Assembly: GCA_964006375.1 (NCBI GenBank)
Contig: OZ023270.1
Coordinates: 69,727,082 to 69,791,081, forward strand
Direction: 5' to 3'
From: Tillus elongatus
Taxonomy: Eukaryota; Arthropoda; Insecta; Coleoptera; Cleridae
Length of the DNA stretch: 64,000 nt
Below are positions 1 to 63,142 of the stretch, piece after piece; positions within the stretch are counted from its first letter, which is position 1, and each line of letters starts with the position of its first letter. The notes below the pieces were generated by a model. The model did not search any database and had not been told where the DNA came from. It worked only from the letters and a program-made list of their open reading frames with translations. The translations under genes were made by a program, and so were the position numbers.

Positions 1-2332
1 TCCATTTTGTTGCTGAATTTCTGACCTTAGAAAAGATTAACTCTAAAATATCGTCATTAATTACATTTATATCATTATTAAAAGTTACACCTAAAATATT
101 AATGCTGTCTGAAGTCCATGAGATACCCAACGGTATTTCAGTTGTGCCTTTGAAACGTCCGAGCCAAAAACCTTTACACTTATTTCTATTTAAAATTGCT
201 CCAGAATTTACAGAATATATTTCGAAAACCTCTACTAGACTGACAAAGTCACACTTTTCAGTTATTAAAACACTTACATCGTCTGCGTATGCTGACACTT
301 TTAGATAATTAATTTCTCCAATGGGACCAGGAAGTCTTAGACCGGTAAGTTTTTGTCTCAAGAGATTCAGCAAGGGTTCCAAACAGAGTGAAAAAAGAAC
401 GCCTGAGAGTGGACATCCCTGGCGTATACCCTTCTTAATAATAATTGGCGATGTCAAAAATTTTGCTGTTCTTATCATACATATGCCACTGGTGTACAAA
501 AGATTTATTAATTTGATAAGATACGGACCAAAGTTATAGAGTCTTAAAAGTGTGAAAAGGTAGCTGTGTGTTATGTTGTCAAAAGCATTTTGTTGATCCA
601 GAGAGACAATTGCTGCACCCTCATTTTGCTTGTTTACATAGGTAATAATGTCACGAAATAGATGTAAGGAGTCATAAATTGATCTGCCTGGAACACAGTA
701 ACTTTGATCCTCATGAACTAAAGTATTTATTACTTTGGAAATTCTAACAGAAATTGACTTCGAAATGATCTTATAATCCGTCGTCATGACAGATACAGGT
801 CGCCAGTTTTTTAAAAGTAATGGGTCACCCTTCTTGAACAATAAAGAGATAACAGATGATCTTGCAGTACGTGGTAAGAGATTTTTACTAATTGCGTCAG
901 TAACCATTTCGAGAAACCTATACTTTATTTTATCCCAAAAATGGAGATAAAATTCTGGTGTCAAGCCATCAATTCCAGGAGCCTTATTTTTATTAAGAGA
1001 CCTCAAAGCAGCGGTAAGCTCTTCAATGCTTAGCGGCTCATCTAATGACTGTCTATTGACATCAGTTAGTGTATTTAAACCGCCAAATAGAGAACTCGCC
1101 AAGTTAACATTACCACCCTGGTCACTAAAGAGAGTCTCAAAATGTGCTTTTACAAAAGAACACACTCCTATGGCATCTGTGATTGTAGAGTTTCCATTTC
1201 GTAGTCCCTCGAAACGTTTGTGAGAGCTTAATATTGGACTTATCATCTCAGCCGTTGGCCTGTCTACATGGTAAAGGTGAGAGAGACCAATTGAGTGAAG
1301 TTTTTTCTCACTGTTTGCAAAGTATATTTGTTTGACTTGTTGATTGATTCTCAAGATATCAGCAATGTTATCATCAGTTATCTCATTCATAAATTCAGAC
1401 AGAGCCCTTTCAGTGGCAACAAAAAACATCCTGTCATGACTACGTCTAAGGACCAAGTATTGTTCAGTCAATTCTTTGATACCAAGCTTAAAATTTTCCC
1501 ACCAGGCTAAAGGATCTCTTTTAGAATCAGCAAGGAGTGATATTATATAATTGTTGATGCAGTCTGTATACTTTGGATCATTTAAAAGGTTGTTGTCAAA
1601 TTTCCACAGCTTTAGCTTGTTTTCCTTTTGAAAATTCAGCAAAACAGACAATGCAAGGTGGTCTGAAAAGGACGGCAGTAGTTTTGAAGAAATGACATGT
1701 GTGAGAACATTATTGGAGCAATATATTCGATCTATTCTGGATGCAGACCTCCCGACATAGAACGTAAAACCACTCTTTCGAGCATTTGTAAGTGGCCACG
1801 CATCATGCAGCAAACAATTACTAACTAGGCTACTGAGTCTCCCGGACACCGCAAGATTTCTCTCCACAGAGTTCAACCTATCCCTCGCTGGAAGCAAGGT
1901 GCAATTGAAATCCCCGCACACTATAGCATGCTCCGTGGCACAGATGTTCAACCGGCTTACGTAATCCTCTAACTTACTAAGAACAGAAAGAGCTATATCT
2001 GAGTCGTGTGAAACATAGACAGACAATACATGCAATATCATATTTTTGACGACGAAAGTAGCTCTTTGTAAGTACCCGCGTATGAGCACCTCATGACTTC
2101 TCAGCATTAATCCTGAAGATACTTTATAACCGATTATTGTACCAGAGTAATTCTCTTGACAAGGGTTAATTAGAAAATTATAAGGGGAAAAAAGGAAAGG
2201 CAATGGCGATACCTCTAAATTAGTCTCCTGTAGACAAGCTATATCGGGTTTTACCTCATCTAGAAAGGACAACAAGGTACACCACTTGGCCTCACTTCTA
2301 AGACTTTTTGTATTAAGAGTTATTATTTTCAT
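1..2332 (-). CDS. Tx1/L1-type LINE ORF2: apurinic-type endonuclease plus reverse transcriptase (partial, runs off the window)
   Basis: I translated the minus strand from the ATG at 2330-2332 and found no stop through about 777 codons to the window edge, so the protein is intact as far as visible. The N-terminal part has endonuclease motifs: QETNLE near residue 40, CGDFNCT near 150 and SDHLALS near 230. The RT region follows, with NKAPGIDGLTPEFYLHFW, NWRPVSVMTTDYKI, GIRQGCPLSG and the catalytic box AYADDVS near residue 700. The GIDGLTPEFY signature and the two-ORF layout fit the Tx1/L1 group; the clade is my inference. ORF2 starts 30 bp after the ORF1 stop. Its role is target-primed reverse transcription. 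The 3' end lies outside the window. Plus-strand frames at 102-1510 are antisense shadows. Intactness suggests a recent copy. Confidence 0.9.
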   Translation of the reverse strand, partial: MKIITLNTKSLRSEAKWCTLLSFLDEVKPDIACLQETNLEVSPLPFLFSPYNFLINPCQENYSGTIIGYKVSSGLMLRSHEVLIRGYLQRATFVVKNMILHVLSVYVSHDSDIALSVLSKLEDYVSRLNICATEHAIVCGDFNCTLLPARDRLNSVERNLAVSGRLSSLVSNCLLHDAWPLTNARKSGFTFYVGRSASRIDRIYCSNNVLTHVISSKLLPSFSDHLALSVLLNFQKENKLKLWKFDNNLLNDPKYTDCINNYIISLLADSKRDPLAWWENFKLGIKELTEQYLVLRRSHDRMFFVATERALSEFMNEITDDNIADILRINQQVKQIYFANSEKKLHSIGLSHLYHVDRPTAEMISPILSSHKRFEGLRNGNSTITDAIGVCSFVKAHFETLFSDQGGNVNLASSLFGGLNTLTDVNRQSLDEPLSIEELTAALRSLNKNKAPGIDGLTPEFYLHFWDKIKYRFLEMVTDAISKNLLPRTARSSVISLLFKKGDPLLLKNWRPVSVMTTDYKIISKSISVRISKVINTLVHEDQSYCVPGRSIYDSLHLFRDIITYVNKQNEGAAIVSLDQQNAFDNITHSYLFTLLRLYNFGPYLIKLINLLYTSGICMIRTAKFLTSPIIIKKGIRQGCPLSGVLFSLCLEPLLNLLRQKLTGLRLPGPIGEINYLKVSAYADDVSVLITEKCDFVSLVEVFEIYSVNSGAILNRNKCKGFWLGRFKGTTEIPLGISWTSDSINILGVTFNNDINVINDDILELIFSKVRNSATKW

Positions 2333-2362
2333 ATTTGATGCGAATATTATTGTATAATTATT

Positions 2363-7807: not shown

Positions 7808-8050
<243 letters not shown>

Positions 8051-21018: not shown

Positions 21019-21167
21019 CCCTATTCACTGCTCTAAGGAGTAGGCAGATTGACGTTTAAGAGTTGATTTACTTTTATATCTCATTAAGCTTGCGAAAATG
21101 CCTCCAATACGGGAGCCGAAATATCGAGTTTTAATAAATTCTAGACGCAGTTCAACCCCATAAACAA

Positions 21168-21168
<1 letters not shown>
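21019..21168 (+). mobile_element. PLE-type terminal fragment with a decayed hammerhead-like motif
   Basis: Contains GGGAGCCGAAATATCGAG, AATAAATTCTAGACGCAGTT and CAACCCCATAAAC before the TA tract. The same block, less decayed, is at 44137-44230 (minus) and 44885-44934 (plus). The CTGANGA core is replaced by GCGAAAA-like sequence, so it is not a working ribozyme. Confidence 0.55.

Positions 21169-21248
<80 letters not shown>
21169..21248. repeat. (TA)n microsatellite
   Basis: TA tract next to the PLE-type fragment. Confidence 0.97.
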
Positions 21249-31310: not shown

Positions 31311-32225
31311 GAACATTAACTGCGTTAACCAGTGTATTTGGAATATATGTAAATATTGGATCCTGCAAACAAAAAGAAATTAAAATCCAGAGAGACCTAG
31401 CAGTGGACAATGTAGCTATTTTTAACGATTTCATTTCCTTATCGATTAGACCGATTAACGTTAAAGTGAAGCCGTGATTTTTTATTGGTCTTTCGCCAGA
31501 TCACGTGTGATACCGCCATCCATAACCCATGAGGGGTAAGTAAACGTCTCAAGCTCACTTCGTATATAGTTTTTAATGTGAAAATCAATTCGTTTATGTT
31601 GGGTATCGGGATCAGCGGGTGAGGGGAGCCGGTACTGAAAACCGATGGCTACTCCAGATAATTGTCAGAAATATCGTCAAACATTAAACGAAGCCTTTGA
31701 CGGATAGCTTTATTGCATGACTTCGGTAAAAGAAAAGTCTTTAAGGAACTATTTCCTATATTTAACACGAAGACTCGGGCTAAACTCAACCTAATCTTCG
31801 AACACGCACCAGACTAATTAAGAAAAATCATTAATTTGGCTATAAATATACAATAATTACCTTTTGTACAGATTTCAGTCGACTCTACCCTCCTCCTTGT
31901 GCAGAGATATTTATTTCTCTTCATATTTCGCGGTTTTATAGATTTCAAGATTTATTGTTAAGCATACTTCTGGAGTTCATGACAGGATACTATTATTTCG
32001 TTCATTAGTTTTTATTTTGGCGCCATTTGTCAGCAGAAGTAGTCATTCTTGTCACGACTCCCGTTCATTACCACGTGATCATGCAACATTTTTCGACTAT
32101 TTTGAAACGTTTTGCCTAAGCAGTTACAATTTAAAAATGCATTTTGAAGACTGTTAGGCCTAAGGATCTTGTTCATTTTTTTTTTCAAAATTTATATTTA
32201 TTTTATTAAACTAAAAACATACATT
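31311..32225. other. Unassigned sequence
   Basis: The 80-codon frame at 31235-31477 has no recognisable motif. Around 31500-31680 the composition is less AT-rich. Confidence 0.35.
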
Positions 32226-32335
32226 TTAGCGAATTTTTATTTTTAAGAAAATCGCTATCAAAGAGGTATCGATGGTGAGACATTGCAAAAATTTTCTCAA
32301 ATGAACGCCAATTTGGGCCTCCAAGCTCCGTTTGA

Positions 32336-32415
<80 letters not shown>

Positions 32416-32717
32416 AATGGTTATTAACCGATCTTCATGAAACTCGGCAATAATCTTTCTTTTATTAATAGCTTGGATGCGTTCGTTGCTAGACCAATCG
32501 GACTAGTTTTTCTAAAAAAAATTAGACTTTTCCGAAAGAAAAACTTGTATCTCCAAAAATAACAAAGTCATTTTAACGAAATTTGGTTGATATATTGTAC
32601 CCGTAAATACCCTACTACGTGTCAAAACTTAAATTTCTAGGTTTATAGAAAATTGAGTTATACAAATTTGAAGCGTTTAATTAAAATCGCAACCATAACG
32701 CACTTGCTGCGTCTCGA
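32226..32717 (-). mobile_element. TA-core element, full-length short version
   Basis: Right end on the plus strand is the head complement (GCACTTGCTGCGTCTCGA); left end is the hairpin TTAGCGAATTTTTA/AAGAAAATCGCTA. TA core 32339-32413. All modules are in standard order. Confidence 0.88.
32339..32413. repeat. (TA)n microsatellite
   Basis: Core of the element at 32226-32717. Confidence 0.97.
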
Positions 32718-37610: not shown

Positions 37611-38369
37611 TTATAATTGATAAAGATATATATTCAGATAGCCAAGCTGTTATAAAGGCTCTTGGTTCCCTACCATTGCAATTCAAAAACGGTATGGAGT
37701 TGTAAATCTGCCCTCAACGAACTGGGCAGTTGCAGTGAGGTGTCGCTGGGCTAGATACCGGGTCACTCGGACCATGATGGCAATGTTGCGTCCGACGCGC
37801 TTGCTAGGAGTGAAGCCCAAGGGGACTTCATCGGAGCAGAACCTGTGCTGGGGATATCATCATGCACAGCAAAATGCACCTTAAAGACCTGGACAGAAAG
37901 AATTACAATCTAGCAATGGCAAAATCTGCCTAGATTAGCTCAGTCTAAGGCCTTCATAAATGGCCTGTCAGAGTCAAGGGCTAAAAAACTGTTAGAGCTA
38001 AACAGACAACAACTGAGTACTCTAGTCGGCCTGTATATAGGACACTACCGCTTGCGCTACCACATGCACCGAATTGGAGTCAGTCAGGAAACTGAGTGCT
38101 GGCTGTGTATGGAGAGTGACGAAACAGCAGAGCACGTACTGTGTTCCTGTCAGGCGGCAGACACGACTATAAACCTGCTATTTGCCAAGGCAAAGCTTGC
38201 ACCGGAAGATCTGGATCAACTTTCGCCGACAAAGATTATCGACCTCTGCAGGAGGCTGGCTTTGTTGGGCGAAATATAGACTGTTAGGCGTGAGCCACAA
38301 TAGACCTTATGGTCGCAGTGGAGGAATAGTTATGGCCCACTCACAATCAAACCTAACCTAACCTAACCT
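37611..38369 (+). mobile_element. 5'-truncated RNase H-type LINE with CCTAA tail, nested in another LINE
   Basis: Starts in RNase H (IYSDSQAVIKALGSLP), continues through a decayed GSDHDGN..DALAR-like block and ends with ETECWLCMESDETAEHVLCS (CX2CX8HX4C knuckle) and TKIIDLCRRLALLGEI. After the stop and about 70 bp of UTR comes CACAATCAAACCTAACC, a tail of CCTAA units to 38369. Exact 10-bp duplications flank it. The family is the same as the minus-strand copy at 53335-54540. Confidence 0.92.
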
Positions 38370-38379
38370 AGGTAAATTA
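38370..38379. repeat. Target-site duplication, right copy
   Basis: Second copy of AGGTAAATTA. Confidence 0.92.
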
Positions 38380-40668: not shown

Positions 40669-41654
40669 GTTTTTATAATATCTAATTAGTTTTGTGTTAG
40701 TTAATATTACTACAATAATAAAATATCCAACATTATAAAACTAAAGAAGGTATAAATGAGCTGAATGACCTCGCTTGGTTATGAGGCCCGATCTGAAGTA
40801 GTTGTGGAAATGTTCGAAGCCGTGCACTGAACATGGAGTATCAGCAGGGGGTGAAAGGAAATGAAGCAACAAACTTACAAATGGCTCGGAACGACATTAA
40901 ACAGCAGCCGATCCAGAATGGCCTCAATGTTCACCGCGATCTGTTTTTGGTTTACCGACCGAATCAGCGCGTCAGAAGCGAAGAAGCTATGTTTTCCAAT
41001 TGTTCCGTTGATACATAAAGAACGGATAGCAAGCGACATTAGTGTAAGAGGAGAGAACAGGCTGGATGATTACAATGTTTGATTTGAAATTCTAGTGTTA
41101 CAGTAGAAGGCATAATAAATTGTTTAACGGGTCATTAGATATATTTTATAAGTTTCGACGCAGCAAGTGCGTTATGTTAGCAAATTCTTTGAGAAAAATT
41201 TGTGAATTTTCTATTGACGTGGAAATCGTATTTAGGATATTATATGGCTTTCTTATTTACTACTATGTACAAAATTGTATCAAAGCATGTATATTATTTC
41301 AGGATATAAACAATTTTATTTAAAAAAATGGTTTAAGAAACTGATGTCTTTAGTCCATTCATTAATTGTTGTTGCCCTTACTTGGTGAAACCGTTTCATA
41401 CTAAATACAGACGTTTTCTCAGACCATTTCATGGAGTCCTAGAGATATGTGGGGCCTTCTACTGAGAGAACATGCTACTGAGAAGGATGTTGTATCTCAT
41501 GTCTTTGGAGATAAATGTAGTGGAAATAGAGGGATGGAGAGAGAGGGAGAGAAAGAGAGAGTATTATTGCATTCTACAGGGAGATATAGGTCCTCCTGAT
41601 GGGAGTGGGTGTTCGGCAAATTACCAGGAGGCTTTATTGAAATTATACAGAGTT
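40669..41654. other. Unassigned sequence with a short TA-core head at 41155-41200
   Basis: CGACGCAGCAAGTGCGTTAT at 41158 is a solitary head fragment. A GAGA-rich run lies at 41538-41565. No gene seen. Confidence 0.45.
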
Positions 41655-41853
41655 TGTAAGACTAGATGCATCTAGTCTTACATACTTTGTCCCTATATTG
41701 GGGGTAGAAATGGGCCAGGGCTGACAATTTTCTAAATTGTTAGTTAGTCGTATACAGCCTCTATTTTTTTAACACTTTGTGTTATTTGGAGCTGGCGTGA
41801 CAACATACTACTTGGTTCCGCAACTAGGTGGCGGCACGTCCACCACTCAGTAT
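41655..41853 (+). mobile_element. Partial monomer of the hammerhead (retrozyme-like) repeat
   Basis: From GATGCATCTAGTCTTACATA through GGGCCAGGGCTGACAATTTT, ACACTTTGTGTTATTTGGAG and GGTTCCGCAACTAGGTGGCG to CACCACTCAG. It stops before the ribozyme part. It lies 50 bp from a PLE remnant. Confidence 0.88.
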
Positions 41854-41904
41854 TTTACAGAGTTATTGAAGCAAGGAAAATCCTAGCTTATTTGAGTTTC
41901 TAAT

Positions 41905-42460
41905 AAATTACCACGAGACTAAAAAACGAGTCCAAAAATATGAGTAATAAGAACGTGCCCCAAAAATTTTACTTTGGCTATATTCAAAATCAAACATGCA
42001 ACCACTATCAGCAAGTAATGGAAAACAATAGCATATAGCAACAATTCTGGCTATAAAAACAGAAACAGCTAGATGCGTACAAAAGTATTTATAATGTTCT
42101 TTAAACCGAGCTCCGCCACTGGTTTGTAGTCCTCTTTTTGCGCTCTGTCTTCGATACAGATAAACATTCCGAAACATGTAAAGTTATAAAGAAAGTTGAA
42201 AAACTTCATCCGGCAATTAAAATACAGTACAGAGAAAATTTAGTCTTCCTCTCGGTATCGTTCTTAACCTAAGACTCAGTATAAAATGTGATAATTAGTA
42301 GTAAGTAGTTAGAATTTTCCATCCTCTGATGACGCTAACTTTGTTAGTGAAACGATCATCAGGTCTTTAAAAAGATGTGTTGTGGGGATTGCGGTTCTCC
42401 AAGTGTACTTATCAATGCTCATCACAGGTTCCAATCTTTAGTTAGCATATCTTGCCTTAA
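41905..42460 (+). mobile_element. PLE C-terminus and 3' region
   Basis: A decayed C-terminal frame (KQLDAY, then TELRHWFVV after TTTAAACCGAGCTCCGCC) and a 3' region colinear with 9694-10120: CAGTATAAAATGTG, GATGACGCTAACTTTGTTAG, CCAAGTGTACTTATCAATGC. The LDAYE.I.I-type ending is typical of PLE GIY-YIG proteins. Followed by a TA tract. Confidence 0.65.
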
Positions 42461-44136: not shown

Positions 44137-44139
<3 letters not shown>

Positions 44140-44927
44140 GAGACATACTTGGTTCTCGGGTTGAACCGCATCCAGAATTTATGAAAACTCGACGTTTCGG
44201 CTCCTGTTTTGGAGCCATTTTCAAGAGGTGAAGGAAATATGTAACGACACTCTAAGGCCTCAATCTGTCTACTCCTTAGAGCGGTGGACAAAGGTGGGTT
44301 GGGTTGTTGTAGGTCGATTACGGGGCCTTAATCTGCCTGCTCCGCAAATCACGCCGGAGATCGTCTGTGAGGTCTCAGTGTGTTCAACGATAGGCCTCAG
44401 AGAGATCTGGCAGTTCGTTGCAAGTCTTGTCTTTTATATGTCGTTCCGTCTACATGCTTCGTTATCAGTGAAAGTAGTAGGGTTACCGTCAATTAAGTGG
44501 AGGGCTTTGGTCACGGTACTTAGAGGATGAGGAGGAAGATTAAGATGGTCACCGGCATTTGCTGAGACAGATAATGGTGAAATAAAATTGTCTGTAGAAT
44601 TTATTTTCTTTTTGTGTGTTTGTAATGAAGATAAAATAGTTTTCCAAGTAGTCGGAAGGCGAAGACCATCATCTCTCTTATTTAAACAATCGGGACGTTT
44701 TTCAATCTCGATTGCTTCGCGGATAATTCTCGTTTTGAAGTTGTAAACCGGTGCTATTTTTCTGGCATTATCGAAGTCTATTTTGTGTCCTGTATGAATA
44801 TGATGCATGTCCAGCTCAGATGAGGGGTCAGATTTTCTAACTGAGAGGGTGTGTTCATATATTCTATTGTCAATGCGTCAGTTTGTTGAAAATGGCTCTA
44901 AAACAGGAGCCGAAACGTCGAGTTTTC

Positions 44928-44934
<7 letters not shown>
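44137..44934 (-). mobile_element. Truncated PLE bounded by inverted terminal fragments
   Basis: Both edges carry the same block in opposite orientation: at the left the complement of GGAGCCGAAACGTCGAG, at the right GGAGCCGAAACGTCGAG itself (44902), each followed outward by a TA tract. The block has a hammerhead-like layout (stem GGCTCC/GGAGCC, then GAAAC), but the CTGANGA core reads TTGAAAA, so it should be inactive. Inside lie a GIY-YIG C-terminus and a segment shared with the LINE junction at 21 kb. Confidence 0.7.
44434..44870 (-). pseudogene. PLE GIY-YIG endonuclease C-terminal part
   Basis: The frame 44808-44434 reads MHHIHTGHKIDFDNARKIAP, then RIIREAIEIEKRPDCLNKRD and DGLRLPTTW. This is the end of the PLE GIY-YIG domain, where (H...GH..DFDN...A) and (R..REAIEI.K....N...DG..L...W) are conserved; the Glu in EAIEI corresponds to the catalytic acid. 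An upstream frame (44870-44810) gives YEHTLSVRKSDPSSELD, continuous with it. The GIY and YIG motifs are absent, so the protein is truncated. Confidence 0.85.
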
Positions 44935-46238: not shown

Positions 46239-47373
46239 GTTTTTTTAAAGGAGTTTGACATTAATTATTTTCAAAAATAATGCTATCAAATAACTGTCCG
46301 GTGAAATAATTTGGGGATACAGAAATGTACCGTATACATTTTCAAACGTAAACATCTCAGTATATGCAATAAAGATATGCAGATACTACGAGCACGAAAT
46401 TTTAATATTTTCTTTAGGAAACGATGCCCAATTCTAATAAAGATAAAATATAAATGCAGCGAATTCGGGAAGTATGTTAATACAGTGAAAAGGAAATGTA
46501 AGATATTCGTATTTTCATGAAACTGGACGTTCTGTCAATGTGGTATTCCAATATATCTAAACGAATAAAAGGAATTCAGTAGACAGCGGTCACTGCAATA
46601 TCATTCGGACAACAGTAAATATTTTTGTATTATTTACATTCTCTAAGGATATTTTCTACCCGACCCTTTGGTTTTTATACTGTCTTATCACCGTCTGAAT
46701 TGAATAGTACTTCAAACTAAGGTTTTTTCCGTGGTAAAATTTTTCAAAGATATGTATTGTTTGCTAAAATTTTGCTTATCTTAAGCGGGCGTTTTAATTC
46801 TTTAACCAATTTGGTTAGAATTAAGATGTGACCGAATTATCCAATAAAAATATATTTTTTAATTTTAAGTTTTTCTAATGCCTAACAAAGTTACATGTCA
46901 AACTACATCATACAGTGCTGTTAGAATGACAAAAATATCAATTGCAAAGATACAATAAAAATATATATATTTCATATCATGGCCTTATGGTTTTCTGACA
47001 TTATTTTCTGTGAAAATTTTACAATATATTTTGTTAGGCATGGTAGAAGGAGCTTTCTTATAAAAGTATACTTGATATGTGTCTCCAGTGGCGTTTTATT
47101 TTTGTAAAAAAAAAGTTTATATTCACCCTTTGCTTTGCAACTCCCTTAAAATAGAAGAAACGATATTGAGTTATCTAGAAGACAGTCTTTTATCAAATAT
47201 CAAAACAATCTGCCACTGTGATATTAGTCCAGTAAATATCCGTCAGAAAAAAAAAACAGGTTTGCTCTGCTAATGTCGCGCAGTTTGGATTTTTGGTTAT
47301 ATTTTTAGCGCTAGGATTGTATCGAAAAGTTCATATTGCCGACATTCTCGTGTTGCTCTGCGCCATTTCGTAT
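46239..47373. other. Unassigned AT-rich sequence
   Basis: Short frames at 46311-46520 and 47079-47273 show no motifs. Confidence 0.4.
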
Positions 47374-48089
<716 letters not shown>

Positions 48090-52450: not shown

Positions 52451-52888
52451 TCGGGACGCAGCAAGTGCGTTATGGTAGTGAATTTTTATTAAATGCTTCA
52501 AACTTGGATAACTCAATTTTCAATAAACTTAGAAAGTTGATTTTTGGTATGTAGTAAGGTCTTTTCTAAGGCAACATATCCACTAAGTGTCATTAAAATA
52601 ACTTTGTAATTTTCTGAGAAAAAAATGTATTCTAAAGAAAATTAAAAATATGAAAAACTCAATTTTCTATAAACTTAGAAAGCTTAATGTTAGTATGTAG
52701 TAAGGTTTTTATTAAAGGAACATATCCACCAAATTTAAGTAAAATAGCTTTGTACTTTTTGTAGAAATTTTTTTTTTCTAAAGAAACCTCAAAATTTTCT
52801 CGGAAAACCTTGTCAGATTTTCCTGGCTAACGAACTCATCCAAGCCAATAATAAAAGAAAGGCACTTGACGAGTTTCATAGAAATCGG

Positions 52889-52971
<83 letters not shown>

Positions 52972-53101
52972 ATAAAAATTAAAACTGAGCCTGGATATGG
53001 GTTCTAGGGGTCCTAAATCTGGCCCTTTTAAACAAATTTTTGCAAAGCCTCATCAACGATACCTCTCTATTAGTGAATTTTTTTAAATAAAAATTCACTA
53101 A
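52451..53101 (+). mobile_element. TA-core element, full-length short version (best reference copy)
   Basis: 651 bp: head TCGGGACGCAGCAAGTGCG at 52451 with TAGTGAATTTTTATT inside it; two tandem body segments; pre-TA block TTTTCCTGGCTAACGAACTC; TA 52894-52964; post-TA GAGCCTGGATATGGGTTCTA; hairpin TTAGTGAATTTTTTTAAA/TAAAAATTCACTAA ending at 53101. Confidence 0.93.
52894..52964. repeat. (TA)n microsatellite
   Basis: Core of the element at 52451-53101. Confidence 0.97.
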
Positions 53102-53334
53102 TACGCATATTTTGGTATGAAATTTATTTGTTTTGTGAGGCTGGTGTTTATAAGAGGCCCGCACCTTGCATTTTTTTAAATGGCAACCTAGGTTTTATTT
53201 GATATCATTTGGCGCAGGTATTTGATACCAAAATACAATACGGTAAACCTTAAGAGTTTTTATCCTATTACACCAGAAATTATAAAATTAAACCAATACT
53301 TTACATACCTGGAACCAATTTTAAAAATTCAGTT

Positions 53335-53378
53335 GGGTTAGGTTAGGTTAGGGTAGGTTAGGTTAGGTTAGGTTAGGT
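53335..53378. repeat. (TTAGG)n tract = CCTAA tail of the LINE
   Basis: About eight TTAGG-type units, one shortened. On the LINE sense strand it follows CACATTCAAA, exactly as at 38345. Confidence 0.95.
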
Positions 53379-54540
53379 TTGAATGTGAGTGGGCCATACC
53401 GGTCCCTCTACCGCGACCATAAGGTCTATTGTGGCTCACGCCTAATGGTCTATATTTCGCCCAACAAAGCAAGCCTCCTGCAGAGGTCGATAATCTTTGT
53501 GGGCAAAAGTTGATCCAGATGTTCCGGATCCAGCTTTGTCTTGCCAAAGAGCAGGTATCTAGTCCTGTCCGCTGCCGTACAGGAACACAGTACGTGCTCT
53601 GCTGTCTCGTCACTCTCCATACACAGCCGGCACTCAGTTTCCTGACCGACTCCAATTCGGTACATGTAATGACGCAAGCGGCAGTGTCCTGTATACAGGC
53701 CGACTAGAGTACGCAGTTGTCTGTTTAGCTATAGAAGTTTTTTAGCCCCTGACTGAGACAGGTCATTTATGAAGGCCTTAGAGTGGGCTAATCCTGGCAG
53801 ATTCTGCCATTGCTGGATTGTCATTATATCTGTCCAGGTCTTTAAGGTGCGTTTTGCTGTGCATGATGTTATTCCCAGCACCGGTTCTGGTCAGATAAAG
53901 TCCCTCTGCGCACCACTCCTGGCAAGCGCGTCGGCCGCAAAATTGCCATCGTGGTCCGAGGGAGCCGGTATCCAGACCAGACACACCTCATTACATCTGG
54001 CCAGTTCGTAGAGGACAGATTTACAACTCCATACCGTTTTTGAATTGCAACGGTAAGAACCAAGAGCCTTTATTGCAGCTTGGCTATCTGTATATATCTT
54101 TATCGATTTGTGTGTGCGCTGGTTTTCTAGATTTTCCCTTGCACACATCTCGATGGCATACACTTCTGCCTGGTGTATGGTTGCGTACTTGCCGAGGCTA
54201 GTTGATAGTCTAGCATCGGTGTTGCCTCCATATGCGCCGCCGGCTCCTACTCCCATATTGGTTTTGGAGCCATCAGCATACCAGTAGAGATCGGCTCTAA
54301 ATAGGGTCGTTTGATTCCGTTCCCTGCCCTCCCTTTCCGGCAGGACGGTCTTGAAAGACAGATCTCTACTGATCTTTGTAGGCATCAAGTCTGAGACTAT
54401 TCCCGGAATCCCATGACCCTCAATGTCATCGAGGAGTCCGAACCCTCCCAGACTGTTTTCCTTCGGCGTGCTGTCGACCGTTTGTTTTAATATATACGTT
54501 GTCCACCTCGACACCCTCTCCAGTCATACGTGAAGAGGTA
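53379..54540 (-). pseudogene. RNase H-type LINE ORF2 C-terminus (same family as 37611-38369)
   Basis: The frame 54514-53891 (207 codons) is open: a linker, then RNase H with WYADGSKTNMGVGAGGAYGG (first Asp), HQAEVYAIEMCAREN (Glu), IYTDSQAAIKALGS (Asp) and DHDGNFAADALARS (last Asp). A TGA at 53888-53890 interrupts it. It resumes with PEPVLGITSCTAK, a K/D-rich linker, and 53677-53450 with ETECRLCMESDETAEHVLCS (CX2CX8HX4C) and TKIIDLCRRLALLGEI. RNase H of I/R1/LOA-type LINEs degrades the RNA strand during integration. A 5'-truncated copy with few disablements, hence fairly young. The copies at 37.6 and 53.4 kb are in opposite orientation. Confidence 0.92.
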
Positions 54541-54745
54541 GAATATTAAGCAACTAACTAACAATTAGGTAAATTGTTAGCCCTGACCCATTTCTACCCT
54601 AATATAGGGCAAAGTATGTACGGCTAGATGCATCCTCATACTGCTTGGTTCCGCAACTAGGTGGCGGCATGTCCACCGCTCACTTAGTGTTGAAAGGCTG
54701 GCTACTATAGCCGTATTGCTTTATAGGTGTATTTTCGCTGCAATT

Positions 54746-54787
54746 AGTATGCCGTACTGAAGAGCTCTAATGAGAGCGAAACCGGTC
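54746..54787 (+). ncRNA. Hammerhead ribozyme 5' part, broken at the cleavage point
   Basis: GCCGTA (54751-54756), CTGAAGA, stem II GCTCT/AGAGC, GAAA, CCGG and TC ending at 54787. The next bases (AGTAGACC) do not provide the stem-I 3' strand; the sequence turns into an inverted ribozyme fragment. Confidence 0.85.
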
Positions 54788-54866
54788 AGTAGACCGGTTT
54801 CGCTCTCATTAGAACCGTAGACCGGTTTCGCTCTCATTATAGGTGTATTTTCGCTGCAATTAGTAT

Positions 54867-54910
54867 GCCGTACTGAAGAGCTCTAATGAGAGCGAAACCG
54901 GTCTACTGAC
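54867..54910 (+). ncRNA. Hammerhead ribozyme, stem I partly lost
   Basis: Core complete from GCCGTA (54867-54872) to GGTC (54903). After the cleavage point only TAC matches the stem-I strand before the sequence inverts. Confidence 0.8.
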
Positions 54911-54929
54911 CGGTTTCGCTCTCATTAGA

Positions 54930-54972
54930 ACCGTAGACCGGTTTCGCTCTCATTAGAGCTCTTCAGTACGGC
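54930..54972 (-). ncRNA. Hammerhead ribozyme, complete core, minus strand
   Basis: On the minus strand: GCCGTA (54972-54967), CTGAAGA (54966-54960), stem II GCTCT with AATG loop and AGAGC, GAAA (54945-54942), minimal stem III CC/GG, T, C (54936) and the stem-I strand TACGGT (54935-54930). All conserved core bases are present. Confidence 0.88.
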
Positions 54973-55405
54973 ATACTAATTGCAGCGAAAATACACCTAC
55001 AAAGCAATACGGCTATAGTAGCCAGAACTATTGTTCTAATTGTTGCGAGAATGCATCTAGCCTTACATACTTTGTCCCTATATTAGGGTAGAAATGGGCC
55101 AGGGCTAACAATTTACCTAATTGTTAGTTAGTTGTATACAGTCTACGGTTCTAATTGTTGCGAGAATACATCTAGCCTTACATACTTTGTCCCTATATTA
55201 GGGTAGAAATGGGCCAGGGCTAACAATTTTCCTAAATGTTAGTTGGTTGTATACAGTCCCTATTTTTTAACACTTTGTGTTATTTGGAGCTGGCGTGACA
55301 ACATACTACTTGGTTCCACAACTAGGTGGCGACACGTCCACCACTCACTGAGTGTTGAAAGGCTGGCTACTATAGCGGTATTACTTTATAGGTGGATTTT
55401 CGCTG

Positions 55406-55466
55406 CAATTAGTATGCCGTACTGAAGAGCTCTAATGAGAGCGAAACCGGTCTACGGTTCTAATTG
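55406..55466 (+). ncRNA. Type I hammerhead self-cleaving ribozyme, complete
   Basis: Stem I: GCCGTA (55416-55421) pairs with TACGGT (55453-55458), extended after a small internal loop by CAATTAG (55406-55412) with CTAATTG (55460-55466). Core: CTGAAGA (55422-55428) and GAAA (55443-55446). Stem II: GCTCT/AGAGC with loop AATG. Stem III is only ACC/GGT with no loop, and the cleavage triplet is GTC at 55450-55452. Type I hammerheads with such a short stem III are known from PLEs and retrozymes and act best as dimers. It would process tandem transcripts into 309-nt units. Confidence 0.92.
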
Positions 55467-55485
55467 TTGCGAGAATGCATCTAGC

Positions 55486-56809
55486 CTTATATGTCCTACA
55501 TGATATAAAGTTGTGTTCCGGGGCCACCTCCATTTTTTTATATTTGGGCTTTTTAGTTTTCACTTATTGTCATTTGTTCAGCCTTTTTTAGTTAATAATT
55601 CCAGAATAATAATGTGTTTTTGGTTCCACGCCCGATAATAAGTTAAATTAGAAATAATAAGGCATAATGTTTTCTTTCAGCTCAAATTTAAAAAAATATT
55701 ACCAGGTATGGAGTCATTCTCTGATATTATGTCTTTTTTGGACTCACGATAACCCATAATTTAAATCGTAATTATCTTTAAAACGGTGAACTGTAAAAAA
55801 AAACTGAACAATGATATTATTTTCTACTGAGGCCGTAGATTTTAAAATTGGATGGTATTTTAAAAAAATCAGTGCTGTAACATTTTTTACAAACAAAATA
55901 TTTGGTTTAATTTACTATTTTTTTTAGAACTTCAACACCAATGTATATATAATGGAAAATCAGCTTGAATTTGGGTTTTAGGTGCCCAAGTTTGCTTTTA
56001 TTGTAAGAAAATTTTCAAAAATCTTAGTCGTGAACCTGTCAATAGAAAATGTTATTTCAGAAAACTAGCTAATACAAAGGAGTTGTTTACAGCCATCAGT
56101 AAAAATTGTTGAACATATTAGTACAAAGCGCAATTTCATTGCATGATATTTTGGTATGTTCTCTCACTTTAACAACACTTTGCAAATTATATCAATCAGC
56201 AGAACAATTTTATCCATAAATTTATCACCATAGTTGCACACACACACATTTTGCCCCATTCCAGGTAACAAGTTTCACTTTGCCATAATATGTGATGGGA
56301 TATAGAAATGGCAAAACTTCGGTCATAAACACGCAAACGACAACCGTAGATAGCACAGAATTAGTTTTAATAATTTCGTTCGTCACTTTGATCTATTTTG
56401 ATAGGGCGGTATATAGGCTGTGGAATAGTTCTTGTAGGGATGAGTTATGTTTCACTAATTATCTGAGAATTGTATCGTGGCAATATTACCAAAGTTCATC
56501 CCCCAATTATGGCTAATTTACGACTGCGGACTGACACCCAACTATTTTATTCAGTCAATTTATAACTAGTAAATATCGGCGGGCACGAATATCTATGAAT
56601 GTTGAATTGGCGAAGGCAAATCGTGGGTACCATGACCATTTTGCAAGCCTGTAATAAATAATTTATTTGTTACACATTTTTCTTATTTGCTTGGTTAGCT
56701 TTTTTTTTGTTTCACATTTCAAATTCAGAAGGCAACCTGATACTACATTAAGCCTCGTGCAATTTTGTATTAAACTATAGGTAAAATAATTGAATTGTTT
56801 ATGTATTTT
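55486..56809. other. Unassigned AT-rich sequence
   Basis: No recognised element. The 74-codon frame at 56292-56516 has no motif. Confidence 0.4.
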
Positions 56810-62117: not shown

Positions 62118-62807
62118 AAAATAAAATTTTAATCACCAACGACTTATGGACCACCTCTATTTGTAAAGATATTTTTTTAAGATGTAGCTCAAGACACCCT
62201 ATAATTCATGTAAACATTTTTTTTCGTATCTTGCATAATGACGGATATACTGAGTTTTAAAGATTTTTTATGAAAATTCGACAAAAATGATATACCATTA
62301 ACCGATAAACTCTACAGCTAACACTACTGCCAAAGCATCAGAGAAAGGATCTATTTGAAATGATTTTTTGCGAATATTTTAGTAAAATGAAGGACAATGA
62401 CGATTGAAACTAAGTTCAGGCTTTGTAAAATATTTTTCTTGAGACATTTTCCTTCCATAGCTCATATTAGTTTCAGGTTTATTGCCTAAATATTACCAAT
62501 TTTGACGTTTTAAATCGCGACTTTGACGTTTTGAGGAAAACCCAAATTTATTTTTCTTTAAATGCCTGTAACTTTTTTGTGCTTTAATCTACAGAGCTAA
62601 ATTTTGGTAGATAACTTATCTAAAATGATATAAACCCGCGAACCAAATTTGGTTGCCGTTACTTTGTTAATTCCGGAGATATACAAAATTTTCCAGGAAA
62701 ACCTCGGCGGAATTTCCTGCCTAACGAACTTGTCCAAGACACTTGGACAAATGAAATGAAGGTACTCATCAAGTTTTATCAAAATTGGTCCATTATTTTT
62801 TTAGTTA

Positions 62808-62829
62808 TAAGTGTGACACACACACACAC

Positions 62830-62917
<88 letters not shown>

Positions 62918-62938
62918 GTGTGTGTGTGTGTCACACTT
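62808..62938. repeat. Inverted repeat around (TA)n, left-flank type
   Basis: TTATAAGTGTGACACACACA on the left is mirrored by TGTGTGTGTCACACTTATAA on the right; arms of about 32 bp around TA 62834-62911. Confidence 0.93.
62834..62911. repeat. (TA)n microsatellite
   Basis: Loop of the first inverted repeat. Confidence 0.97.
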
Positions 62939-62941
62939 ATA

Positions 62942-63004
62942 ATAAATTTCTTCAAATTAGCGCTATTTAGAAGCCCTGGAATCCAAATCGGATGTCGGTT
63001 TCAA

Positions 63005-63078
<74 letters not shown>

Positions 63079-63142
63079 TTGAAACCGACATCCGATTTGG
63101 ATTCCAGGGCTTCTAAATAGCGCTAATTTGAAGAAATTTATT
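62942..63142. repeat. Inverted repeat around (TA)n, right-flank type
   Basis: Arms of about 69 bp, perfect as read, from ATAAATTTCTTCAAATTAGC at the left to GCTAATTTGAAGAAATTTAT at the right, around TA 63010-63074. Confidence 0.95.
63010..63074. repeat. (TA)n microsatellite
   Basis: Loop of the second inverted repeat. Confidence 0.97.

Follow-up and report, generated by a model that had tools for sequence, protein, structure and literature searches.

Metazoan non-LTR retrozymes have, in the part of PMC7229834 drawn on here, units of about 170–400 bp and target duplications of more than 4 bp, and LINEs or PLEs are named there as their movers, PLEs being favoured on co-occurrence. Animal retrozymes, including those of insects in general terms, are in print together with PLEs as their likely partners (PMC7229834; PMC7761336; PMC11722881; all as excerpted), and the repeats are stated to have no conserved motif that would reveal the partner (excerpt of PMC7761336). 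The Anolis PLE cuts and extends both target strands in vitro from internal starts near the hammerhead; its tail is the space between the two start sites, and unprocessed RNA is its main template, ribozyme mutants being inserted too (PMC11167929). The PLEs of Adineta form inverted repeats that are mostly head to head, with palindromes at the turn, duplications of 8–10 bp and a tail on one inverted repeat, and are able to move other sequences in trans (PMC3846280, partial text).

The element described here was found at 54.5–55.5 kb of the window, the whole stretch of 64,000 nucleotides that was analysed, and its assignment to the metazoan non-LTR retrozyme kind is supported. It shares with these retrozymes, as characterised in the portion of PMC7229834 cited, the type I hammerhead, a unit of about 300 bp, a GC content below 50%, the lack of an ORF, tandems, a self-paired circle, duplications of more than 4 bp and PLEs in the same genome. 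A previous examination (the sequence-only reading) had called it retrozyme-like, and the type I hammerhead, 309-bp tandem unit, low GC content, lack of an ORF, predicted self-paired circle and duplications agree with that name. The same reading was not aware of a description of the family; retrozymes of this kind were published in 2020 (PMC7229834, in part), while in a non-exhaustive literature search neither fixed paired start sites nor head-to-head anatomy turned up for retrozymes. The ribozyme is a variant one for an insect, and the insertion anatomy is newly noted. As far as the cited sections of PMC7229834 go, the element differs from the retrozymes described there in its head-to-head pairs (35 of 61 loci) with two fixed 3′ ends; it also has no stable stem III, a condition which those sections report for vertebrate retrozymes and not for most invertebrate ones. 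With the hammerhead of newt/axolotl satellite 2 it has in common one A-U pair closing a palindromic tetranucleotide and a dimer that is predicted to be needed, whereas the sequence is another one, the host is an insect and the activity is predicted only. The pDo500 satellite of Dolichopoda cave crickets is likewise an insect hammerhead repeat with a proposed dimeric form, but its stem III lies within one molecule, whereas here two molecules would be joined by stem III (PMC2837043, in part).

The 309-bp unit and its hammerhead

The sole complete 309-bp unit of the window locus spans positions 55144-55452 (+). Its GC content is 0.424, and the longest ATG ORF of the 309-bp circle has 26 codons, i.e. 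there is no ORF, in keeping with the earlier statement that the unit is non-coding and relies on other machinery. The ribozyme features of this copy are as follows.

55396..55476 (+): type I hammerhead, complete, stem I long; its core is 55422-55452 and cleavage is predicted at 55452/55453
55445..55450 (+): ACCGGT palindrome replacing stem III; kept in 83 of 106 genomic copies

The whole window was compared with 4227 Rfam families using Infernal. Hammerhead_HH9 (RF02275) was matched at 55404-55474 (+; 30.4 bits, E=0.0014) and 54914-54984 (-; 28.5 bits, E=0.0053), and more weakly at 54863-54920 (+; 23.9 bits) and, partially, 54757-54787 (+; 21.6 bits), all four matches scoring below the curated cut-off of 52 bits. 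With 1.2 kb only, the E values were 2.5e-5 (55404-55474, +) and 9.9e-5 (54914-54984, -). This comparison, of the kind that the sequence-only reading had proposed, gave hammerhead matches, all under the family's cut-off; every core base of the hammerhead claimed at 55406-55466 is present. Four places carry the 31-nt core CTGAAGA...GGTC in identical form: 54757-54787, 54873-54903 and 55422-55452 on the plus strand and 54936-54966 on the minus strand, the last within the second match and corresponding to the complete minus-strand core already reported. The two further copies described as cut at or near the cleavage position are both on the plus strand and stop at that position or 3 nt beyond.

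In the complete copy, a stem I of 6 bp leads into an internal loop and then a second, long part, stem II has 5 bp and a four-base loop, GAAA is present, GUC stands at the cleavage position and the palindrome ACCGGU occupies the place of stem III. A weak stem III with a palindromic loop, together with canonical stems I and II, is as in the newt-type dimer-acting hammerhead. The best ribozyme copy folded with z -5.67 (0/200 shuffles), and its minimum-energy fold is not the hammerhead: for a single copy, the hammerhead is predicted at -24.7 and the free minimum at -33.6 kcal/mol, the former being 8.9 kcal/mol costlier. For tandem units, the predicted energies are -136.1 kcal/mol for the double hammerhead, in which the palindromes pair mutually, -121.0 for two single hammerheads and -137.6 for the free minimum, so that the double form is 1.5 kcal/mol less stable than the free minimum and 15.1 more stable than the two single ones. 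Cleavage as a dimer is predicted to be favoured, the single ribozyme with its loopless stem III being predicted weak.

Other candidate sequences were discarded. The hammerhead-like string at 42326-42357 is attributed to chance, with no Rfam match and a fold z of -1.60 (14/200 shuffles as good), and the Rfam microRNA matches at 54763-54980 (mir-3202 and others) are a by-product of the inverted repeats there. Among viral contigs, one pattern scan gave two exact matches (L001, L002), which have no hammerhead at gathering cut-offs, another pattern scan gave zero matches, and a scan with a 15-base pattern gave 12 (L003-L014), taken as chance.

Genomic copies and insertion anatomy

The host genome searched comprises 1.72 Gb in 30 contigs. 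With the unit as query, 116 matches in 40 loci were obtained, 40 having been scored of 3342 first-look candidates, a figure that does not equal copy number. Sample A consists of 40 loci (39 and the window locus) plus a second copy at 41.7 kb of the window. Because its query ends at unit position 40 and therefore favours copies extending to that position, sample B was obtained with unit positions 60-200 as query; 40 of 1725 candidates were scored, the loci were distinct from those of sample A save for the window locus, and of 39 loci the first 20 entered the analysis. The 61 loci in total were mapped against nine copies of the unit. They are dispersed, all nine contigs sampled carrying copies, and many contain tandems, the longest of at least 6 units (L057); the identical spacing of these tandems confirms that the 309-bp unit is real.

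Complete ribozyme copies numbered 106, in 40 of 41 loci, and the core was intact in 70 of them. Core positions vary by 3.7% among the 106 copies, against 6.5% in the rest of the region, a modest excess. Stem covariation beyond that of shuffles was not found among the genomic copies: stem I has three double changes, reached by 91/200 shuffles, and a paired fraction reached by 1/200, and stem II gave no covariation signal.

The orientation is minus-plus in 35 of the 61 loci, minus only in 16, plus only in 9 and complex in one. The minus-plus loci are simple pairs in head-to-head arrangement, their 3′ ends both pointing outward; the reverse, plus-minus arrangement was found in 0/61. The single plus loci include the 41.7-kb copy, which carries a stub, and the complex one is the window locus. 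Outer 3′ ends (n=97) fall mostly at two sites, 45 at unit 33-47 (site A) and 40 at unit 204-218 (site B; binomial, 1.7e-72), with 12 at neither. The two sites account for 54 of 64 ends in sample A and 31 of 33 in sample B (13 at site A and 18 at site B). Since the site ranges were fixed after seeing sample A, sample B is the fairer test, site B having been widened by one base after it. Outer 5′ ends (n=25) are scattered from unit 1 to 273. Among 101 5′ and head ends, 9 lie at most 4 nt from the cleavage position, where 2.6 were expected (p 0.0013), and many arms run through that position for several units.

Target duplications of 9–15 bp were present in 22 of the 61 loci; they are 70% AT and not microsatellite, and in a control, mismatched left and right flanks of different loci matched equally well in 16/3660 pairings. 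The unit, its tandems and its target-site duplications, which the sequence-only reading had proposed to look for in the genome, were all encountered. One end at each of sites A and B was found in 23 of the 35 head-to-head loci, the other 12 being without this pairing, and 19 of these 23 two-site loci have a duplication of 10–15 bp. Among the other 38 loci, a duplication of at least 9 bp was found in three: L036, whose A end is seemingly shortened, L074, which has a single orientation, and the 41.7-kb copy. The 41.7-kb copy and L036 look like disguised head-to-head copies. Poly(A) or a simple tail was absent from the terminal junctions of the 11 loci inspected.

Outward 3′ ends on both sides indicate that each target strand primed its own cDNA, the fixed position of these ends points to internal starts at two sites, and the scattered 5′ ends, together with arms of several units, argue for a template without a fixed 5′ end, i.e. 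a circle or multimer. The insertion pattern is therefore consistent with a circular or multimeric RNA on which both strands of the target prime, at two internal sites. The predicted circle has z -4.06 for the sense strand (0/100 shuffles as stable) and -1.05 for the antisense strand (14/100). In its predicted fold, sites A and B lie near one four-way junction, positions 39-42 pairing with 235-238 and positions 207-217 forming the base of the next arm; this modelled proximity is a suggestion only.

The two copies in the window

The window locus at 54.5–55.5 kb is a scrambled insertion and not a simple tandem. Its parts, with the adjoining LINE, are the following.

53345..54523 (-): decayed LINE, RNase H part, adjoining the retrozyme insert with its 5′ side; approximate start
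54551..54637 (-): piece of the retrozyme, running from unit 106 down to 19
54638..54787 (+): retrozyme piece, unit 160 to 309, with core 54757-54787; its end coincides with the position of ribozyme cleavage
54789..54839 (-): pair of short pieces, inverted, around the cleavage site (unit 3 to 288, about 12 to 290)
54840..54906 (+): retrozyme piece, unit 246 to 3, core 54873-54903; within a 116-bp tandem duplication
54908..54929 (-): inverted piece, unit 309 to 288
54930..55025 (-): inverted piece with complete ribozyme core 54936-54966
55028..55143 (+): retrozyme piece, from about unit 1 up to 115, diverged in its first bases
55144..55452 (+): complete 309-bp unit
55453..55492 (+): final 40 bp, unit 1 to 40; the insert stops at site A

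The left end of the locus is thus at unit 106. No ribozyme lies upstream of the first GTC/TACGG junction (55143/55144), where the sequence jumps from unit 115 to 1, GTC being common to both. The release of a 309-nt RNA from a tandem transcript, as claimed earlier, fits the tandems elsewhere in the genome, but this junction is not ribozyme-made. No target duplication was found around the insert or around insert and LINE together. Co-insertion of LINE and retrozyme as one chimera gained no support: no duplication encloses the two, the best repeat being of 6 bp and off position. The protein relatives of the LINE are from Molorchus and Cylas. A run of TTAGG-like repeats, the motif of insect telomeres, is present at its 3′ side (53336-53380), and a second LINE copy (37615-38370) has the same TTAGG-like end.

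The other copy in the window, at 41.7 kb, is simpler and consists of the following parts.

41646..41654 (+): target-site duplication TACAGAGTT, left copy, 9 bp
41655..41668 (-): 14-nt inverted stub that starts from unit 39, in site A
41666..41849 (+): the other retrozyme copy, covering unit 23–204 and ending at site B, without ribozyme; 91.8% alike
41856..41864 (+): target-site duplication TACAGAGTT, right copy, 9 bp

Stub and copy form a 28-bp palindrome. A repeat of at least 9 bp at such a position occurred at 8/4000 random places, and at 1/4000 after AT-rich ones were removed. The partial monomer without ribozyme noted before near 41655 is this copy; the PLE said to lie next to it exists, but about 2.3 kb off.

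Mobilisation and rival explanations

The PLE piece in the window was delimited as follows.

44137..44934 (-): PLE piece bounded by inverted terminal repeats, of which only the left end has a tail; GIY-YIG C-terminal ORF 44434-44877

It is head to head, with the tail on one side only, and its protein relatives are from Diabrotica, Leptinotarsa and Trypoxylus. As the database relatives of the LINE and the PLE belong mainly to beetles, the host is probably a beetle too. Among the 40 scored matches of 879 candidates, all except the window's own are at 97–98%; the PLE family is young in the host genome, judging from these sequences. PLE ends were readable with an exact anchor in 6 of 8 loci, and all six stop at the same base, 53 nt past GTC; the hammerhead-like motif has no canonical core in the copies read. 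Four of the six ends are placed within (AT)n itself, which the retrozyme targets are not, and for this reason we only infer the mobiliser. Retrozyme and window PLE show no sequence similarity (scores 20 and 24, shuffles up to 28), and descent of the former from the latter is rejected on this ground.

The retrozyme resembles PLEs with hammerheads in internal starts near the hammerhead and the use of both target strands (PMC11167929), and in head-to-head copies, palindromes at the turn, short duplications and end asymmetry (PMC3846280, partial text). It differs from them in having no protein and no similarity to the window PLE, in start sites at other distances past the cleavage position (about 40 and 211 nt, against 15 and 53 nt in the PLE), and in duplications that are longer (10–15 against 8–10 bp; PMC3846280, same portion) and not concentrated in (AT)n. 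The insertion anatomy parallels PLEs better than LINEs. The earlier suggestion that a PLE plausibly supplies the machinery is strengthened by the anatomy of the 61 loci and weakened by the frequent occurrence of this PLE family in (AT)n.

On balance, we regard it as fairly probable that this is a non-autonomous retrozyme family moved by a PLE-type enzyme, with two internal starts on a circular or multimeric RNA template. Tandem genomic units would be transcribed, and the hammerheads, mainly as pairs through the ACCGGU palindrome, would cut the RNA into 309-nt monomers, which, by analogy with relatives, may be closed into circles. A reverse transcriptase borrowed from a PLE-type element would start at about unit 40 (A) and unit 211 (B), the target being cut with a stagger of about 10–15 bp and each of its strands offering a 3′ end as primer. 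Each cDNA would follow the circular or multimeric RNA for less than one round or for several and stop anywhere, the two cDNAs would be joined head to head, and gap filling would give the target duplication. The window locus would be a scrambled product still ending at site A.

It is possible, though unlikely, that a LINE moves the retrozyme and that the head-to-head copies arise by twin priming, the second target strand priming inside the RNA. Twin priming of L1 yields outward 3′ ends and duplications of a length similar to those of the retrozyme; it leaves one 3′ end fixed and the second start variable, whereas here both 3′ ends are fixed (45 and 40 of 97), and the junctions of the 11 loci inspected argue against it by their lack of poly(A) or a simple tail. 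LINEs are abundant in the window, one of them adjoining the retrozyme insert, and are left open as retrozyme movers in the consulted part of PMC7229834. That unequal exchange and fold-back, acting at the DNA level, have dispersed and inverted an ordinary satellite, with the ribozyme as a passenger, is very improbable: tandem arrays exist, and other long perfect palindromes with (AT)n centres in the window indicate that fold-back events or assembly errors occur here, but the dispersed loci on nine contigs, the fixed 3′ ends, the single inversion polarity, the duplications of 10–15 bp in 19/23 two-site loci and, with its modest excess, the lower variation of the ribozyme core (3.7% against 6.5%) speak against such an origin.

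The start sites may also be real and the template a linear monomer cut by the ribozyme, instead of a circle or multimer, a reading to which we give little credence. The excess of ends within 4 nt of the cleavage position (9/101 against 2.6 expected) leaves room for some linear template, and in the window locus that position is where two pieces begin and one stops. The remaining 92 of 101 ends lie elsewhere, and arms cross the cleavage position, over at least 6 units in L057; copying of linear cleaved RNA was thus rejected as the origin of the window locus and is a minority route at most.

If movement by a PLE-type enzyme is correct, a circular RNA would serve as an insertion template through copying of several turns. 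The two fixed start sites with inversion of one polarity are a signature of the partner that can be searched for in published retrozymes. The wider proposal that animal retrozymes are the SINEs of PLEs, circular RNAs with two PLE-type docking sites, one per target strand, stands in our opinion at even chances; if true, the retrozyme would be a two-site element of mirror-image form whose target duplication measures about 13 bp, and its moving machinery would be settled.

Some additional features were recorded. A further PLE end (21090-21180, +) has a tail running into (AT)n, and one PLE relative, P0062, is a PLE-type protein from a Pissodes strobi bin labelled Wolbachia and probably stems from host DNA. 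The abundant LINEs of the window include an open frame of 787 aa at 2-2362 (-), with endonuclease and reverse transcriptase domains, which exits the window. A dispersed repeat is attached to (AT)n microsatellites (e.g. 47373-47910, 52646-53109 and 32223-32682), its longer copies being 73–83% alike. Perfect palindromes with (AT)n centres are located at 62941-63142 (202 bp), 7808-7959 (152 bp) and 62805-62942 (138 bp).
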